From contig JAHFDG010000024.1 of assembly GCA_023249105.1 (NCBI GenBank), forward strand, positions 1 to 51,926: a stretch of DNA of 51,926 bases. The letters run 5' to 3'. A program made the position numbers and the translations under genes. The notes beneath the pieces were generated by a model. That model was not told the DNA's origin, did not search any database, and worked only from the letters and a program-made list of their open reading frames with translations. The DNA is from Candidatus Methanoperedens sp. Its GTDB lineage: Archaea; Halobacteriota; Methanosarcinia; Methanosarcinales; Methanoperedenaceae. Positions within the stretch are counted from its first letter, which is position 1, and each line of letters starts with the position of its first letter. This document shows positions 1 to 9,752 of the stretch, in pieces.

Positions 1-120
1 TATGTCAATATCTTGATGATATCAACAAAATGCCTGTGATTTTCAAGTGGAAATACAAGATGGATGAAATGCCTGGAAGAATTGAGTCATTGTAATATTA
101 ATTTGGAATTGATATACTAG
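1..120 (+). mobile_element. 3' end of an insertion sequence (left copy, inverted relative to right end)
   Basis: Positions 2-120 are an exact reverse complement of 51808-51926 (119 bp, no mismatch seen); identity stops at 120/121. One frame is open from 3 and stops at TAA 93-95. It encodes a C-terminal tail of about 30 residues containing YLDDINKMPVIFKWKYKMDE, which reads like the end of a transposase although I cannot name the family. About 25 bp follow before the repeat ends at CTAG (117-120), which could be a YTAR-type target-site duplication. A contig that ends in the same sequence on both sides is what an unresolved multi-copy insertion sequence produces. The family assignment is inference. 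Confidence 0.6.
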
Positions 121-988
121 ATTCTGAAAGTAGTCTTTCAAAAAGCAATATTTCTTGATCTCCTCCGCCTAACAAGTTGAGAGGTAAATATAGGTCTCCC
201 ATATCGGCATGTACAGCTCCCCCACGCATCTCTAATGAATAGGATGAAAACTTGTGAAATGATTTTTTGTATTTTGACCAAATGTTTGACTCCACTCTAG
301 CTGGATTTTGACCAATAGCTGTCAGGTAATTTCTTGTCTCAGTATCAATCAAAAAAGGTCTGGTGCCTGGAGATGAACGTTCTCCAGATTCTCTTACAGT
401 TCGGATTAGTATGAACTTTCCTCTAAACATTTCTGTCATTTTATTAAGGATTTTTTGGGCTGGTTCAGGAGGTAATGGCAATGACTTTGGACCTTCAACA
501 GGTTCAGGTAAAATATAATCGCCAGCTATATTAGGGATAAATGAGTTTTCAGGGAAATTTTTCTGGGGTATATTATCTTTAACTAACTCCCAGTTTCCGA
601 AAGAAATACTTTTATTGTTCCATCTATTTCCTGAAATTTCCCTCTCGATAGTCAATTCATTATCTTTTAACTTATACCCATCCTGTATAGTCATTGTTTT
701 CAAAATATCCTTAGTAAATATCTCCTCTTTTTGTTTTTCAGTCAATTTAAGTTGAATTTTGAATAGAATAGGTACTCTATTATCCCGATCAAACCATAGG
801 TTTTCTTCAAATCCTTTCTCAACTTGTTGCGCTAAATTTAAATCTGTGAAAAATAGCTCTAAAGCTTCTAAAATATGAGATTTCCCTGAACCATTTTTAC
901 CTATAAACACATTTATATTTTTAAGTCCATTTATTGGTACATTCTCAAGGCTTCTATAGTTTTGTATTGTTACTCCTGTAATTATCAC
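98..988 (-). pseudogene. AAA/OLD-type ABC-like ATPase, 3' end cut off at the insertion sequence
   Basis: The protein begins at GTG 986-988 and has an SMC/RecF/OLD-type N-terminus (ITGVTIQNYRSLENVPI) with Walker A GKNGSGKS at residues 30-37. It ends 16-17 residues after a signature-like LGGGDQE (273-279), before any Walker B (hydrophobic run plus DE). Only 121-988 is native; the last codons (ISIPN, stop at 98) are read from the insertion-sequence end. ATPases of this kind are normally longer and include Walker B, so this copy is probably inactive. Such ATPases occur in defence nucleases (OLD/Gabija-like), but no nuclease domain remains, so its role is open. It is AT-rich. Confidence 0.75.
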
Positions 989-2915: not shown

Positions 2916-3698
2916 TTATTTCTTCGATTGTTCGTAGATTTCGTAAGCCTCATCCACAGACTTGCCATCATGAACGATCGCCCTTACCGCCTGTATCATA
3001 CCCACAGGGCTGTCGCTCTGGAAAATATTCCTGCCCATATCCACCCCGATAGCGCCGTCCGAGACTGCATTATATGCCATTTGCAGGGCTTCCGTCTCTG
3101 GCAGCTTTTTGCCGCCTGCAATGACAACAGGAACATTACCGCACGCCTCGACAACTTTCCCGAAATCCTCGGTATAATATGTTTTGATAATGTGCGCGCC
3201 CATTTCCACGCAAATCCTTGAGGCAAGACCGAGATACCTGGCATCACGCGCCATTTCCTTCCCGACTGCGGTCACTGCAAGGACAGGGATTCCATATTCT
3301 TCACCCTCATCCACTATCTTTGACAGGTTATCTATTGTTTCCTTTTCATATTCGCCGCCGACATACACGGAACATGTGATAGCAGAGGCGTTAATCCTTA
3401 TCGCATCATCAATTGAAGTCGTTATGGTTTCATTGGACAACTCCTTCAGGATGCTCTGGCCGCCCGATACGCGCAAAATTATCGGTATATCCGCAGCCGG
3501 GTCTATCCAGTTCCTGAGCGCACCCCTGGTTATCATCAACGCATCTGCATAGGGCAGCAGCGGCTCAACTGTTTTGCCAAGGTTCGCGAGGCCGGTAGTC
3601 GGGCCCTGGAAGTAGCCGTGGTCAACAGCCAGCATGACGCAGCGCCCTGTTTTGGGCTTTATTATCCGTGAAATCCTGTTCTTCATTCCCCAGTTCAT
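2916..3698 (-). CDS. LsrF-like class I aldolase/thiolase (DeoC/FbaB superfamily)
   Basis: A 260-aa TIM-barrel aldolase of the DhnA/LsrF group. It follows bacterial LsrF (3-hydroxy-5-phosphonooxypentane-2,4-dione thiolase) almost motif for motif: MLAVDHGYFQGPTTGL near the N-terminus, LMITRGALR, AHIIKTYYTEDF with the expected Schiff-base lysine, PVVIAGGKKLPE, and the phosphate-binding GVDMGRNIFQSDSPV. The start is supported by AGGAGG eight bases before ATG. No other lsr gene is present, so an autoinducer-2 role is not supported here. An archaeal sugar-phosphate or shikimate-precursor aldolase role is also possible. A 71-aa cysteine-rich protein gene ends 22 bp upstream, so the two probably form an operon. 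Confidence 0.82.
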   Translation of the reverse strand: MNWGMKNRISRIIKPKTGRCVMLAVDHGYFQGPTTGLANLGKTVEPLLPYADALMITRGALRNWIDPAADIPIILRVSGGQSILKELSNETITTSIDDAIRINASAITCSVYVGGEYEKETIDNLSKIVDEGEEYGIPVLAVTAVGKEMARDARYLGLASRICVEMGAHIIKTYYTEDFGKVVEACGNVPVVIAGGKKLPETEALQMAYNAVSDGAIGVDMGRNIFQSDSPVGMIQAVRAIVHDGKSVDEAYEIYEQSKK

Positions 3699-3720: not shown

Positions 3721-3936
3721 TTATTCTGGTCTTAGCAATAAATAGCCTTTTTCGATGAGCCAGTGATGGAATTCATAAGTGGTATGCAGGCAATTTTTGA
3801 TGCATATTTCCCGCAGGTCATTGTAATCTGCCGAGTCCTGTGTCTTTTTATTCATCATCGCCTGTATGGGACACTCGATATCGTTGCAGTATTCTCTTCT
3901 TTTGTACTCTACGAATCCCTCGATTGGCACAATCAC
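3721..3936 (-). CDS. Small cysteine-rich protein, 71 aa, function unknown
   Basis: From GTG 3934-3936 it encodes a 71-aa soluble protein. It has two cysteine pairs, CNDIEC (17/22) and CIKNC (46/50), and a TTYEFHHWLIEKGYLLLRP tail rich in aromatic and His residues. Four spaced cysteines suggest a zinc or iron-sulfur site. It lies 22 bp upstream of the aldolase gene and is probably co-transcribed with it. I do not recognise a named family. Its first codons and its promoter are duplicated at 4660-4739, on the far side of hicBA. Confidence 0.6.
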   Translation of the reverse strand: MIVPIEGFVEYKRREYCNDIECPIQAMMNKKTQDSADYNDLREICIKNCLHTTYEFHHWLIEKGYLLLRPE

Positions 3937-3987
3937 AAAGATGATTCTGAGGATTTAAAATTTGCGGAAATGTTTGGGGGAGGATTT
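3906..3987 (-). repeat. Direct repeat copy 1: start codon, leader and promoter of the 71-aa gene
   Basis: This segment and 4660-4739 align over about 80 bp at roughly 90 percent identity with one 1-bp gap. Both read, on minus, an AT-rich TATA-like AAATTTTAAATCCTCAG, a short leader, and GTG ATT GTG CCA ATC GAG GGA. This copy is intact and leads into the 71-aa gene. The repeats flank the hicBA module. Confidence 0.85.
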
Positions 3988-4127: not shown

Positions 4128-4376
4128 TTATTTATTTCCTCTGTATTTCGAATATAGTTCGGTAAATTCCTCCAAACTCATTTCTAAATCTTCTCGTATA
4201 ATCTTGCGCAGAAGCCCTTTAGGGACATCCTTATTTCCATGCACAGGAACACTTGTCGCCCTTCCGTCTTCTGATTTTAACCGTGAATGTGAGCCTTTAG
4301 TCCTGGTAACTTGAAAGCCTAAGTATTCTAAAAACTTTATAAGCTCTTTGCCTTTGAATACAGGAAGTTTAGGCAT
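4128..4376 (-). CDS. hicA: HicA-type mRNA interferase toxin
   Basis: From ATG 4374-4376 it encodes 82 aa of the YcfA/HicA family, a dsRBD-like ribonuclease that cleaves mRNA. The N-terminal half has LPVFKGKELIKFLEYLGFQ, and the catalytic His lies in KGSHSRLKS (a GSH motif). SVPVHGNKDVPKGLLRKII is the usual C-terminal part. An upstream TTG (4385) is possible, but the ATG fits the family length. It overlaps hicB by 8 bp, in the order antitoxin then toxin. Its closest partner is the HicB upstream. The length is normal and the gene looks intact. Confidence 0.88.
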   Translation of the reverse strand: MPKLPVFKGKELIKFLEYLGFQVTRTKGSHSRLKSEDGRATSVPVHGNKDVPKGLLRKIIREDLEMSLEEFTELYSKYRGNK

Positions 4377-4590
4377 TCTGAGCAACTTCCATTTCTCTAA
4401 ATCCTACGAACTTATTTAATTCTTCGACCTTCGTTTCTTCAAGGCACATATCTATGACTTCTTTTATATTTTTCAGTGCCTCGTCTATAGTTTCACCGTA
4501 TGAATGGCAACCTTTGAATACAGGGCAACTTACTATGTAATACCCATCTTCATCGATTTCGATTATTATTGGTAGATGTAATTTTTCCAT
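4369..4590 (-). CDS. hicB: HicB-type antitoxin
   Basis: I choose ATG 4588-4590 (73 aa), with AGGA seven bases upstream; the longer frame would begin at TTG 4623. LPIIIEIDEDGYYIVSCPVF followed by KGCHSYGETIDEALKNIKEVI is the typical HicB fold, which docks on and inhibits HicA. No separate DNA-binding C-terminal domain is visible. The module stands between two direct repeats. The upstream repeat copy, carrying a promoter, lies about 70 bp ahead of this start, so it may drive hicBA. Confidence 0.88.
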   Translation of the reverse strand: MEKLHLPIIIEIDEDGYYIVSCPVFKGCHSYGETIDEALKNIKEVIDMCLEETKVEELNKFVGFREMEVAQNA

Positions 4591-4659
4591 ATCTGATATT
4601 CCTGTTAGATAGATGGGTTCCAAATATTAAGATATTTCGCCTATTTTTCAGCAATAGCT

Positions 4660-4739
4660 ACTCTGCAAATCCCTCGATTGGCACAATCACATAGATGAAT
4701 CTGAGGATTTAAAATTTGCGGAAAGGTTCGGGGGGATTT
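4660..4739 (-). repeat. Direct repeat copy 2: duplicated promoter and broken start of the 71-aa gene
   Basis: This near-copy of 3906-3987 still has the promoter-like AAATTTTAAATCC and the frame GTG ATT GTG CCA ATC GAG GGA TTT GCA GAG, but then meets TAG. The gene fragment is dead. The promoter is placed directly upstream of hicBA in the right orientation. A duplication that accompanied hicBA insertion explains both observations. Confidence 0.8.
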
Positions 4740-4954: not shown

Positions 4955-7369
4955 TTATTTACACCAACTATCTAATGTCGCAAATTGTTTTATAGGTTCC
5001 ATCTTTTTATCTTCAGATACAATATTAGCCTTTATTCCAATATTTAGCAAAAAGGTCACTAATTCTTGTTTCACATTAGTTGTACTAAACTTTTTATTAT
5101 TGGGATGAATAAAAATTTTTCCTTTAATATTTGATAATTTATTACTAAATTCTGAAATTTTTGGATATAATGTTATCTTTTCGTTTCTTTTAACAAATAG
5201 ATTTTTTAACTCCTTTTTCCTAGGTGAATTGACTATAACCAAAGATTTAAAATCATTTTGGTCGAGATCAAATTTAGCAGCGATTTGTGTCTCTATTTCG
5301 ACTGCGTGCATTTCTTTCGGTAAATCTAAATCAAATTCAACAATTGGTTTAAAAAATCTTCTATATTTTACAGAAAAAACGATTTCACGAATAAGGTCAT
5401 TTTCCAAGTTCTCCAAATAACTGTACAATTCTAAATCTGTAAATGTATATAAACTAGACCTATCAATATCCCCTGCATCATAAGCTAAATGTAAAGCTTT
5501 TGCCATCATCACCTCTGCACTAGAAATTTTATCATTATAATATACATTTTGATACATTTCAACATATATTCCAAGAAGAAATTCGAGTAATTCATCTAGA
5601 TTATAGATGCCTTTGTTATCTTTGTTATCTAAATATAATATTTTTGCATTTTCTGGGAATTTTGATTTATAGGCATCATCTAACTCATTTACTGTTCCCA
5701 CACAAAGACAATTTATAAAGTCTATTGTCATATCATTTAATATTTCTCCCATAGGATGTTTTAGAGGTACAATCTCCTTCTGAATCTTATTCGGTAATTT
5801 ACCTTTGTATTGCGTCATTAGCAAATCTCTCATTAAAAAATCAACTCTATCCAAGTCAAGGGCATAATCAGTTAATAACCAAGCGAGAAAGATTTTATCT
5901 GCATACCTATGAAGTTCTTCAATATTATCAGTCTTAAAAACTGTTCTATCTTTTACCTCAGTAAGATTCATATTAATATCTTTTAGAACCTCTCTTAAAT
6001 CTATTAGCCCCTCATCTATGAATTTTCTTGTATATTTTTCATGCTCATTTCCTTTCTGAATTCTATCATAAAATTTATCTAAAACATGTCCAAGTGGACC
6101 ATGCCCAACATCGTGAAGTAAAGCTGCAAATATTGTATTTTTTTTATCGTCCTCAGATACATCTTTAAAATTCGAATTGTCTAAAGCTAAAGATACCAAA
6201 TATGCTACGCCTAAAGAATGGGAAAAACGAGTGTGTGTGGCGCCAGGATATCGATATTGTGCAAATGAAAGTTGTTTTATGTCTCTTAATCTCTGAATAT
6301 CAAAAGAATTTATAATTTTAAAAATATCTTTTTGTAATTTTTCTGGAAAATCTATTTCTCCATATAAAACATCAGGAATGGGACATTTATTTCTATTTAT
6401 TAAGGTACCCACAGTTTTATTTTGAATTAGATTATTCAAAAAATTGATATGATTTTCTATTAAATCCATACTAATTTTTTCTCGATCTACGTAAGTATCA
6501 AAAAGTTTTTTTAAGAAATCATAACTTTCGGATATTATCACATTATTTGTGGAGTTAAAAGCACTAAGTATTTTCTCAATATTGCTGTTGTGTTTTACTT
6601 GATTTCTTTTCACCCATACAATTTTTACATCGTGAACTTCTTGGGAAATTTTAAGTAACGCTTGAAAAATATCACTGTCATTACATGCATAACCGACAAA
6701 AATGATTATGCTATTTGATTTGAAAATATCTGTTAATATAGTATATTTCGGTTTAGATAGCTCTTTTTCCATATCCGTTACACTTGATACAATAGTAAAG
6801 GGTTTTGAAATTGTTCCATGTAACTTGTAAATTATTGTTGTGTCCTTGATTTTTCCTGAAAAATGACTGAAATCTGCATCATCTGCCGCTGTTAATACAG
6901 TTTTATCTGCAAATAAACCCCTTTTTTGAAGTAATCCATATGCATCTTCAATTTTTTCATCAAAATTAGTCGTAATAATTTGGTTAATCTTTCTATTTTC
7001 CATGAGATTTAACCAAGCTATAAATTTATAATTTGGAGGAGTATATTTTCCTTTCCCAAACAGTTCATTTAATAATCTAAAATAAGGCGTTAAATTTTCA
7101 CCATGTTCAACCAAGCATTTTTCCCAGACCATTTCTGGTGGAATATAATCTTCTTTAATACCGTATGTTTTTTTAAATTGCTTTTCATATGTTTGTAGAG
7201 TGTTATCTGAAACTTGTCCAAAATGATACTTATATAATTCCAGTTTCATCTCATTTCCATCGGGAAGTTGATGGATAGGCATCAAGCTACATCTCGAAGC
7301 TCCTGCTCCTATGAAAAGTGCTGTATTTTGCATATCAATATCTTTCAATAACGTATCAAGATTATACAT
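4955..7369 (-). CDS. SIR2-like NADase domain fused to SAMHD1-like HD phosphohydrolase
   Basis: An 804-aa two-domain protein; I choose ATG 7367-7369, behind AGGTGG (GTG 7378 is possible). The N-terminal SIR2-like domain has FIGAGAS (19-25), TTNFD (133-137), YKLHG with the catalytic-type His184, and VGYACNDSD (225-233). The second domain is an HD dNTPase-like fold: HTRFSHSLGV (Arg381, His384), LLHDVGHGPLGH (His419-Asp420), and ALDLDRVDFLMRD (Asp507 matching the last metal ligand). All active-site residues of both domains are present. SIR2 domains in prokaryotic defence cleave NAD+, and SAMHD1-like HD proteins degrade dNTPs, so an antiviral nucleotide-depleting role is a strong inference. The gene is visibly AT-rich compared with the core genes and lies beside hicBA. 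Confidence 0.88.
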   Translation of the reverse strand: MYNLDTLLKDIDMQNTALFIGAGASRCSLMPIHQLPDGNEMKLELYKYHFGQVSDNTLQTYEKQFKKTYGIKEDYIPPEMVWEKCLVEHGENLTPYFRLLNELFGKGKYTPPNYKFIAWLNLMENRKINQIITTNFDEKIEDAYGLLQKRGLFADKTVLTAADDADFSHFSGKIKDTTIIYKLHGTISKPFTIVSSVTDMEKELSKPKYTILTDIFKSNSIIIFVGYACNDSDIFQALLKISQEVHDVKIVWVKRNQVKHNSNIEKILSAFNSTNNVIISESYDFLKKLFDTYVDREKISMDLIENHINFLNNLIQNKTVGTLINRNKCPIPDVLYGEIDFPEKLQKDIFKIINSFDIQRLRDIKQLSFAQYRYPGATHTRFSHSLGVAYLVSLALDNSNFKDVSEDDKKNTIFAALLHDVGHGPLGHVLDKFYDRIQKGNEHEKYTRKFIDEGLIDLREVLKDINMNLTEVKDRTVFKTDNIEELHRYADKIFLAWLLTDYALDLDRVDFLMRDLLMTQYKGKLPNKIQKEIVPLKHPMGEILNDMTIDFINCLCVGTVNELDDAYKSKFPENAKILYLDNKDNKGIYNLDELLEFLLGIYVEMYQNVYYNDKISSAEVMMAKALHLAYDAGDIDRSSLYTFTDLELYSYLENLENDLIREIVFSVKYRRFFKPIVEFDLDLPKEMHAVEIETQIAAKFDLDQNDFKSLVIVNSPRKKELKNLFVKRNEKITLYPKISEFSNKLSNIKGKIFIHPNNKKFSTTNVKQELVTFLLNIGIKANIVSEDKKMEPIKQFATLDSWCK

Positions 7370-7473
7370 ATTTGCCACCTGATGTCATATTACTATGTCA
7401 TTTAAAATATAAAGTCTTCTATTTATACATGACGAGTTAATGAGATTAATAGAACATAATCGGCGGAGGATTG

Positions 7474-7854
7474 ATGAAATTAAAAGAAGTTGAGATAATA
7501 GTCATGAGCGATGAAGAATACGGGGAACACCTGAACCAGTTGTTTGAAAGGGTCAAACGGGGCGAAATACATGAACCGGAACCCCATGAGATTTTGGCGC
7601 GCACAGCAGAGGATATTGGAAAGATATTGACGCGCGAGCGCCTGCGCTTACTTTCGGTTATCAAGGAAAAGAAACCGGAATCTATAAGCGAACTTGCAAG
7701 AATTCTGAAACGCAAGGAATCAAATGTGCACAATGACCTGACTTTCTTAGAAGGTATCGGTCTTCTTGAGCTGAAAGAAAGTAAGAATCATGTCAGGAAA
7801 GCGCCGGCTGTTGATTACGATGCGCTGCATATTACTGTTCCACTGACAGCGTAG
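7474..7854 (+). CDS. Winged-helix regulator of the HVO_A0114 type (antitoxin-like)
   Basis: I choose ATG 7474, four bases after GGAGG (126 aa). The C-terminal half is a winged HTH: LTRERLRLLSVIKEKKPESI, SELARILKRKESNVHNDLTF, LEGIGLLEL, then the wing and a final YDALHITVPL. This order is typical of the haloarchaeal HVO_A0114 group, which often regulates toxin genes or acts as antitoxin. It is divergent from SIR2-HD, with 104 bp between the two start codons, so it is a plausible local regulator of that gene. The next gene is convergent. Confidence 0.72.
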   Translation: MKLKEVEIIVMSDEEYGEHLNQLFERVKRGEIHEPEPHEILARTAEDIGKILTRERLRLLSVIKEKKPESISELARILKRKESNVHNDLTFLEGIGLLELKESKNHVRKAPAVDYDALHITVPLTA

Positions 7855-7857
7855 TGC

Positions 7858-8205
7858 TCACTCAAACTCCACAATCGCTTTTTTCGCGCCTATCGGAGTA
7901 ATCAGAGCCTGTGTACCTTTCTCAATATGATACGACTCTCGAAGCTCCTTCGGAAGCCGTAGCAGTAGTATTTTTCCACTCTCGCTTAGTTTTCTCTTGT
8001 ATAAAGCCTGCCCTCTTGGCGCAACACCAAGCGCGGCTTTTAATCCCTTCTCTATTTTGTGTATGGAATCCGGATGGTTTATGTAGATTTTTCTGCCCGT
8101 ACTTTTATGCCTCCTGACAAGAACGTCTGTAATAACCACAGGGATGCCATAGTTTTCAATTACAACGTCTTCGTATACATCTTCAAACTCGATATTCTTT
8201 TTCAT
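7858..8205 (-). CDS. AbrB/SpoVT-like C-terminal domain protein, 115 aa
   Basis: The last 40 residues (ILLLRLPKELRESYHIEKGT, ALITPIGAKKAIVEFE) resemble a swapped-hairpin AbrB half-barrel, the DNA-binding module of many antitoxins. The first 75 residues hold a second, weaker beta-rich unit (VVITDVLVRRHKSTGRKIYI) and a basic linker. GAGGTG six bases before ATG supports the start. It lies 4 bp downstream of the 125-aa gene, so the two are almost certainly one operon. An antitoxin or regulator role is inferred. Confidence 0.55.
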   Translation of the reverse strand: MKKNIEFEDVYEDVVIENYGIPVVITDVLVRRHKSTGRKIYINHPDSIHKIEKGLKAALGVAPRGQALYKRKLSESGKILLLRLPKELRESYHIEKGTQALITPIGAKKAIVEFE

Positions 8206-8745: not shown

Positions 8746-9309
8746 TTACCATGGAATTCTCCTCGCCATATCGCAATAATACTTCAACTTGCAGCTATGC
8801 TCTATCTGCGCCGTGACAAAATATGCTTCCTCAATTGTTTTCCCGGCTGCGAAAGTGCCGTGGGCAAAAACGATAACGCCTTTGTGGTCTTTCAGCGCTC
8901 CCGAAGTGTTATCCGCAAGTTCTTTTGTCCCGAAGCTGCCCCTCACCACAGGAATCTCATGCAGGATATACTGCCCTTCGCTGTCAGGAGGTATTATCTT
9001 ATCATGTCCCAGCAGCGACTCGATGACCGAAAATGCGGGATGGGCATGGACAACCGCAAGCGCCGCTGTATTCTTATAAATCGCCCTGTGAATCGGGCTT
9101 TCAGATGAAGCGATGCTGTCAGGGCTTGAAGGCTTATCGATATCCACCTCCACAACACTGTCCTCATTTATCTCATCAAGAGGCGTGCCGCTTTTTGTGA
9201 TAAACATCCTGCCGCCTGCGCGCACGCTCATATTCCCGAAATTCGACTCAACAAGCCCGCGCTCCACAAGCTTCTTTCCGAATTTTGCCATGTCCTGCCA
9301 CATTTTCAT
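8746..9309 (-). CDS. Class II aldolase/adducin family protein (FucA-like)
   Basis: About 187 aa of the zinc-dependent fuculose-phosphate aldolase family. ESNFGNMSVRAGGRMFITKSG is the substrate loop, HAHPAFSVIESL carries two zinc His, and FAHGTFAAGKTIEEAY carries the third. A catalytic Glu is expected in the DSEGQYILHE region. I choose ATG 9307-9309, which overlaps the upstream stop as ATGA; ATG 9303 fits the AAGGA spacing slightly better. It is coupled translationally to the LigD-type phosphoesterase gene upstream, an odd pairing. The substrate is unknown. Confidence 0.82.
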   Translation of the reverse strand: MKMWQDMAKFGKKLVERGLVESNFGNMSVRAGGRMFITKSGTPLDEINEDSVVEVDIDKPSSPDSIASSESPIHRAIYKNTAALAVVHAHPAFSVIESLLGHDKIIPPDSEGQYILHEIPVVRGSFGTKELADNTSGALKDHKGVIVFAHGTFAAGKTIEEAYFVTAQIEHSCKLKYYCDMARRIPW

Positions 9310-9752
9310 TTCCTTTTGAAAAAAAGCCACGAATCCTTTCCCCTGAACCTGGTTTTAATCAGGGCATACCTGCCTGTTAACTTTTTTCCCCTTAACTCAA
9401 AGAGCAGCTCATTATCCTTCTCGCTTTCAAGAATGAACTCGCCTTTATCCCATATCCGCACAGTCCCGGCGCCGTACATCCCCTCAGGTATCGTGCCTTC
9501 AAAATCGGCATACTCAAGCGGATGGTCTTCAGTCTGGATTGCAAGGCGCTTTTCACCCTCTTTGGCCGGCGGCTCCTTTGGAACAGCCCACGAGCGAAGC
9601 ACTCCTCCCATCTCAAGCCGCAGGTCATAATGCAAATGCCTGGCATCGTGTTCATGGATCACAAAAACATTCCCTGCATGTGGTTTAACGCTGCCTTTCG
9701 GTTCAGGTGATTTTGAAAAATCCCTTAATTTATAATATTCATCAAGCTGCAT
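9306..9752 (-). CDS. Stand-alone LigD-type 3'-phosphoesterase
   Basis: A 148-aa protein consisting only of the PE domain found at the N-terminus of bacterial LigD. FVIHEHDARHLHYDLRLEMG holds the metal and catalytic His/Asp/Arg set. LRSWAVPKEPPAKEGEKRLA, EDHPLEYADFEGTIPEGMYG and GTVRIWDKGEF are the other hallmark blocks, and it ends in WLFFKRK. It removes 3'-phosphates or a 3'-ribonucleotide from DNA ends during repair. No ligase or Ku gene is next to it, but nth lies immediately upstream (4 bp), suggesting a small DNA-repair operon. Confidence 0.92.
   Translation of the reverse strand: MQLDEYYKLRDFSKSPEPKGSVKPHAGNVFVIHEHDARHLHYDLRLEMGGVLRSWAVPKEPPAKEGEKRLAIQTEDHPLEYADFEGTIPEGMYGAGTVRIWDKGEFILESEKDNELLFELRGKKLTGRYALIKTRFRGKDSWLFFKRK

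Follow-up and report, generated by a model that had tools for sequence, protein, structure and literature searches.

SIR2 NADases and SAMHD1-like dNTPases are among the main metabolite-depleting immune enzymes, and in the literature searched they are separate proteins. In ThsA of type I Thoeris, an N-terminal SIR2_2 NADase fold and a C-terminal nucleotide-binding module (SLOG) form one chain. DSR2 is a single-gene system with an N-terminal SIR2 NADase followed by large MID and CTD regions, which recognise the phage tail tube (PMC10981675). Kongming is built from separate genes; its NADase is the SIR2 protein KomC and its messenger is the deoxynucleotide dITP (PMC12948488). On the HD side, the antiviral SAMHD1 of humans, EF1143 and BT4208 represent the full-length dNTPase-type fold, and CloA of Clover is a standalone, nucleotide-regulated HD dNTPase of the HD superfamily that acts as an antiphage effector and is switched on by dTTP (PMC12265719). 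Here, we describe an archaeal gene that joins both enzyme types in one polypeptide. This natural fusion poses the question of whether a dNTPase can be turned into the sensor that serves a NADase, or whether the protein destroys both pools at once.

The fusion protein resembles ThsA in its N-terminal SIR2_2 fold, its catalytic Asn, His, TTNxD and G-Y/F-xxxD motifs and the combination of effector and C-terminal nucleotide-binding module in one chain, but it has an HD module where ThsA carries SLOG, and the eight proteins scanned included no TIR (ThsB) gene product. It shares with DSR2 the single gene and the N-terminal SIR2 NADase, and has a SAMHD1-like HD domain and HD_assoc_2 in place of the MID and CTD regions. 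KomC is close to its SIR2 half in the profile search (8zsf); however, Kongming uses separate genes and a different sensor, and no KomA or KomB analogue was recognised among the neighbours scanned. The HD half has the full-length fold and the metal/catalytic residues of SAMHD1, EF1143 and BT4208, but it is joined to SIR2, has lost the R366, H376, K377, loop G and most of the AL2 features, and is rebuilt at residues 520-595. The antiphage HD protein CloA stands alone, whereas this HD domain is joined to a NADase, and no CloB nucleotidyltransferase was present among the neighbours scanned. We class the fusion as a variant within the SIR2 effector proteins and not as a kind of its own. No named system with a SIR2-HD fusion was found in the literature searched, a body from which subscription papers and most preprints are absent.

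The gene is one intact open reading frame without an internal stop in the 51,926-nucleotide stretch analysed (the window). Its parts are as follows.

4955 to 7369, minus strand: SIR2-HD fusion gene, 804 aa, ATG at 7369, stop codon at 4955-4957
6470 to 7369, minus strand: N-terminal defence-type SIR2 half, residues 1-300 (SIR2_2, conservation across 27 relatives, profile matches, Foldseek)
5813 to 6379, minus strand: HD catalytic core, residues 331-519 (Pfam HD; phmmer to 9mr6, 2q14, 2o6i and SAMHD1; column counts)
5585 to 5812, minus strand: rebuilt segment, residues 520-595, in place of the AL2/substrate-lid region of the family (HD-family HMM, G008 copy)
4958 to 5584, minus strand: C-terminal HD-associated part, residues 596-804 (Pfam HD_assoc_2, column counts, family HMM)
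7370 to 7473: divergent intergenic region of 104 bp, with an AGGTGG ribosome-binding-like motif just 5' of the ATG at 7369

Pfam placed SIR2_2 at residues 130-258 (E 8.2e-14), HD at 381-461 (E 2e-9) and HD_assoc_2 at 605-746 (E 6.1e-8). All three exceeded the gathering cut-offs, and the matches are therefore not due to chance. The initial annotation had described an intact SIR2-like domain fused to a SAMHD1-like HD domain in an AT-rich gene beside hicBA, divergent from an antitoxin-like regulator and without a named counterpart. These points were borne out: the FIGAGAS and TTNFD motifs and H184 on the SIR2 side, and R381, H384, H419-D420 and D507 on the HD side, are exactly the residues it had named. 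The GC content is about 27 to 30% in each part of the gene, compared with 42.4% for the window, and GC3 is about 20%, compared with 49% in background genes. The codon usage distance was 0.18 between the SIR2 and HD halves and 0.32 to 0.33 between the halves and the background. Because the halves have common GC content and codon usage, an assembly chimera was disfavoured, and the fusion is genuine. The low GC content throughout and the codon usage common to both halves fit horizontal acquisition as one unit, and the gene was probably acquired horizontally.

The SIR2 half carries the defence-type SIR2_2 motif set (GAGxS, TTNxD, K-x-HG and GYxxxD) with the catalytic Asn and His. FIGAGAS starts at residue 19, TTNFD at 133, and KLHG contains H184; the key positions are G21/G23/S25, T133-T134-N135-D137, K182-H184-G185, G226 and D231. 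T133, T134, N135, D137, E141, K182, H184, G185, G226 and D231 were invariant in a comparison with 27 relatives. The PDB matches of the SIR2 profile were ThsA, KomC, DSR2, FAM118B, SIR2/HerA and other SIR2 proteins, several of which were deposited as NADases. An AlphaFold2 model of this half had moderate confidence (mean pLDDT 62.5), and its best 50 Foldseek matches comprised only DSR2, ThsA, SIR2/HerA-type proteins (including PsSIR2) and FAM118B, with DSR2 at the top. In DSR2, N133 and H171 are required for full NADase activity, and their mutation lowers it (PMC10981675). N135 and H184 are the motif counterparts of these residues. Because of these counterparts and the defence-type SIR2 relatives, NADase activity is the function expected of the SIR2 half from its sequence, and N135 and H184 are the positions at which it can be tested.

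The HD half contains a full-length EF1143/SAMHD1-type domain formed by residues 331-519 and 596-746. It matched 9mr6 (SAMHD1 from Rhizophagus irregularis, according to the PDB description), 2q14 and 2o6i in phmmer searches (E about 1e-17), and its model gave Foldseek matches at E about 4e-17 with local pLDDT of 80 to 95 across much of the domain. The full-length model was built from HD alignment rows only, so its SIR2 part is unreliable, and the SIR2 half was modelled separately. The core residues are Q359, R360, R362, Q366, R381, H384, H419-D420, H423, H428, D431, H443-E444, D507 and D515. Column counts over 28 homologues showed a complete metal and catalytic centre (R381, H384, H419, D420, H423, H428, D431, H443 and D507), the SAMHD1 counterparts being, in order, R164, H167, H206, D207, H210, H215, D218, H233 and D311. 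Some of these SAMHD1 numbers are given as general background. The deoxyribose-recognition positions are also kept (SAMHD1 Q149, D319 and Y374 correspond to Q366, D515 and Y610), as are the AL1-type positions (Q142 and R145 correspond to Q359 and R362) and, in the C-terminal HD-associated part, Y610, R670 and K675. The position of SAMHD1 D137 is occupied by N354, and EF1143 likewise has Asn there. In SAMHD1, the roles of H167, H206-D207, D311, H215 and H233 in the metal centre and in acid/base chemistry have been described, and D137N switches the activator from GTP to XTP (PMC7311409).

In contrast to this intact centre, the family-typical phosphate-binding and allosteric set (R366, H376, K377 and R333/R352/K354/N358 of the AL2 segment) is not present. 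The SAMHD1 R366 position is Arg in 27 of the 28 homologues, whereas the fusion protein has I601 there, or Y602 if the gap is placed differently; the H376 position is His in all 28 and N612 here; and K377 is replaced by D613. The glycine after the RDxxxT motif, found in 28/28 homologues, is Q520, and the Y315 position is F511, a change shared by two of the homologues. An HMM made without the fusion protein aligned up to residue 519 and picked up again at 596; about 33 positions of the family model were passed over where the protein has 76 residues. The four SAMHD1 AL2 residues, whose roles are described in PMC11074143, fall in the region replaced by this segment. In SAMHD1, R366A leaves tetramer formation possible but reduces kcat by a factor of about 300 (PMC11074143). 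Given these losses and the rebuilt segment, the HD half cannot be presumed to have the canonical dNTPase activity and allostery of SAMHD1. The H419/D420 pair and the divergent positions 601 and 612 offer the corresponding tests for the HD half.

The reading we favour, which falls a little short of probable, is that one gene encodes a SIR2 NADase effector and that a remodelled HD module, binding a deoxynucleotide, gates it. It would be an abortive-infection-type defence effector in which the SIR2 domain is the killer, hydrolysing NAD+ once switched on. The HD module, of EF1143/SAMHD1-type dNTPase ancestry, would have been remodelled to serve mainly as a switch: it may bind, and perhaps slowly turn over, a deoxynucleotide-type ligand whose level shifts in viral infection, and would in this way gate SIR2 as SLOG does in ThsA. 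Gating would then outweigh bulk dNTP depletion. This model is supported by the fusion itself, the intact SIR2 residues, the intact HD metal centre, the lost nucleotide-handling residues, the signs that the HD part is under purifying selection, and the variable, toxin-antitoxin-rich location of the gene; the defence role in particular is suggested by domain type and location, which make the fusion a candidate for single-gene archaeal immunity. ThsA with SLOG, Kongming with dITP (PMC12948488) and the nucleotide-controlled CloA (PMC12265719) are precedents for nucleotide-controlled defence enzymes. The more specific proposal, that a SAMHD1-type HD domain was converted in a hitherto undescribed one-gene immune protein from a dNTP destroyer to a deoxynucleotide sensor or timer gating a SIR2 NADase, is possible and somewhat more doubtful. 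If true, it would link nucleotide-pool sensing and NAD+ depletion in one archaeal chain.

The initial annotation had proposed two nucleotide-destroying domains in one protein, in which SIR2 would use up NAD+ and HD, acting separately, would use up dNTPs, so that host metabolism and the replication of the virus are both blocked. Both catalytic centres are indeed intact, Q366, D515 and Y610 remain for deoxyribose recognition, and some HD dNTPases are antiphage effectors, as Clover CloA demonstrates (PMC12265719). However, the claim of an HD half that actively depletes dNTPs is not supported in that form: the triphosphate-binding and allosteric residues at the R366 position, H376 and loop G are lost although they are invariant or nearly so in the 28 homologues, K377 has become Asp, the AL2 segment is replaced, and in SAMHD1 the loss of R366 by itself costs about 300-fold in kcat (PMC11074143). 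We consider dual depletion unlikely; it stays among the alternatives on account of the two complete catalytic centres. It is at least as likely that the HD domain is a sensor or has an altered substrate. Against a pure sensor stands the complete HD catalytic centre, which such a role would not need, and the domain may therefore carry out hydrolysis, perhaps of a different substrate. The HD domain might accordingly act as a phosphohydrolase on another nucleotide (with a shorter phosphate chain, modified or cyclic) and serve as a timer or off-switch for SIR2 or as the processor of a NAD-derived signal. The kept metal and acid/base residues together with the altered gamma-phosphate end of the pocket would suit such an enzyme, but none of the homologues found is known to act on an alternative substrate, and we regard it as improbable.

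Searches for the SIR2_2 and HD pair found the one intact copy, HD-part fragments in two congeneric genomes (G008 and G017) and, within the samples described below, no other fusion. The G008 fragments are 79 to 82% identical to the fusion gene, also lack the R366 and H376 residues (GTYAEMYSNVYYND) and keep sequence similar to the rebuilt segment 520-595. Their dN/dS values were 0.36 and 0.25; the HD part is under purifying selection. This copy (L021, G008:C204, 1110-1986), which is a decayed copy in a related species, has transposase genes on both sides, and its two pieces are separated by an additional frame break. The G017 match (L022, G017:C51, 1-335) covers the last 94 codons of the gene at a contig end (73%), with in-frame stops just upstream, and is a probable second remnant. 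The SIR2 half was not found in the G008 or G017 assembly, which leaves a single genome in which the fusion as such is proven.

The SIR2 half served as query against 31 congeneric genomes, against 393 from the phylum and, in three other phyla, against 250, 296 and 299, and a SIR2 profile was run on 244 and 237 genomes of two further phyla. These SIR2-based searches sampled roughly 1,750 genomes, with limited sensitivity for diverged fusions, and no second SIR2-HD fusion appeared. None of the SIR2 matches whose locus was taken had an HD domain; a few matches in one profile-searched phylum lacked a locus. SIR2 was likewise absent from the best 80 HD-half loci among the matches listed for a collection of 84,980 species and from 28 viral loci matching the HD half, no match in phage and plasmid records spanned 80% of the fusion protein, and when genome and viral collections were scanned with single-protein patterns, no close relatives were confirmed. 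Apparent fusions among the matches, for example G016:C51 (query 207-432) and L132, were rejected: they had the HD domain alone or were a long reading frame in which no SIR2 domain could be detected. Elsewhere in the phylum, a 663-residue open frame of another archaeal genome (L027, 208-2196) carries SIR2 at its C terminus (about residues 390-627), an unusual order. The fusion is apparently very rare. This distribution bears on whether the protein is a housekeeping, non-defence enzyme for NAD and nucleotide homeostasis in this archaeon, as the mostly housekeeping remainder of the window might suggest. Of the 31 congeneric genomes, one has the full gene and two more have fragments of it; its GC content is far below that of the host, its site is variable, and its SIR2 half matches defence NADases, not classical sirtuins; we judge such a role very improbable.

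The neighbours of the fusion gene are listed below.

3905 to 3980, plus strand: 76-nt direct repeat, copy 1, flanking hicBA
4128 to 4385, minus strand: hicA toxin gene (PF07927, E 8e-20)
4369 to 4623, minus strand: hicB antitoxin gene (PF15919)
4659 to 4734, plus strand: second copy (92%) of the 76-nt direct repeat, separating hicB from the fusion gene
7474 to 7854, plus strand: HVO_A0114-type winged-HTH regulator, divergent from the fusion gene (PF25212, E 4e-23)
7858 to 8205, minus strand: ORF of 115 aa lying downstream of the regulator; its MazE/AbrB-like match is sub-threshold

These genes lie in a variable interval spanning from an aldolase-family gene (2916-3698) to a class-II aldolase gene (8746-9330), which in the window contains the repeat-flanked hicBA, the fusion, the regulator and the weakly matched MazE-like gene. 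No toxin partner was recognised for the latter, nor any complete known defence system beside the fusion. The syntenic interval of G025 holds other toxin-antitoxin-like genes without the fusion; regulator-like DNA occurs without the fusion there and, up to near the contig end, in G009. G015 has a different HicB/HicA-type pair between copies of the same 76-nt repeat. Repeat copies lie at 7009-7117 and 7790-7899 of L236 and at 7248-7318 of L235, and G025 has the repeat once. The fusion sits in a variable toxin-antitoxin hotspot, in which toxin-antitoxin cassettes seem to be exchanged at the repeat site, and both hicBA and the regulator give the impression of independent cargo. The repeat-flanked placement of hicBA led us to reject it as the main partner of the fusion. 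That the fusion acts as a toxin held in check by the divergent regulator or hicBA, as antitoxin or repressor within one toxin-antitoxin unit, is scarcely credible despite the divergent 104-bp promoter region, the adjoining hicBA and the toxin-antitoxin-rich site, as regulator-like DNA occurs without the fusion in G025, about 330 bp including a repeat separates hicBA from the fusion, and the G015 repeats enclose a different pair.

The rest of the window consists mostly of what we take to be housekeeping genes, including formylmethanofuran dehydrogenase-type and cytochrome-biogenesis genes, of a methane-cycle archaeon, probably Candidatus Methanoperedens. Near its start, an ORF of 296 aa with 33% GC (98 to 988, minus strand) encodes an AAA_15/OLD-like ATPase whose best PADLOC match was AriA (E 3e-17). 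Because only the N-terminal part of the profiles matched, it is probably a truncated or partial defence-type ATPase.
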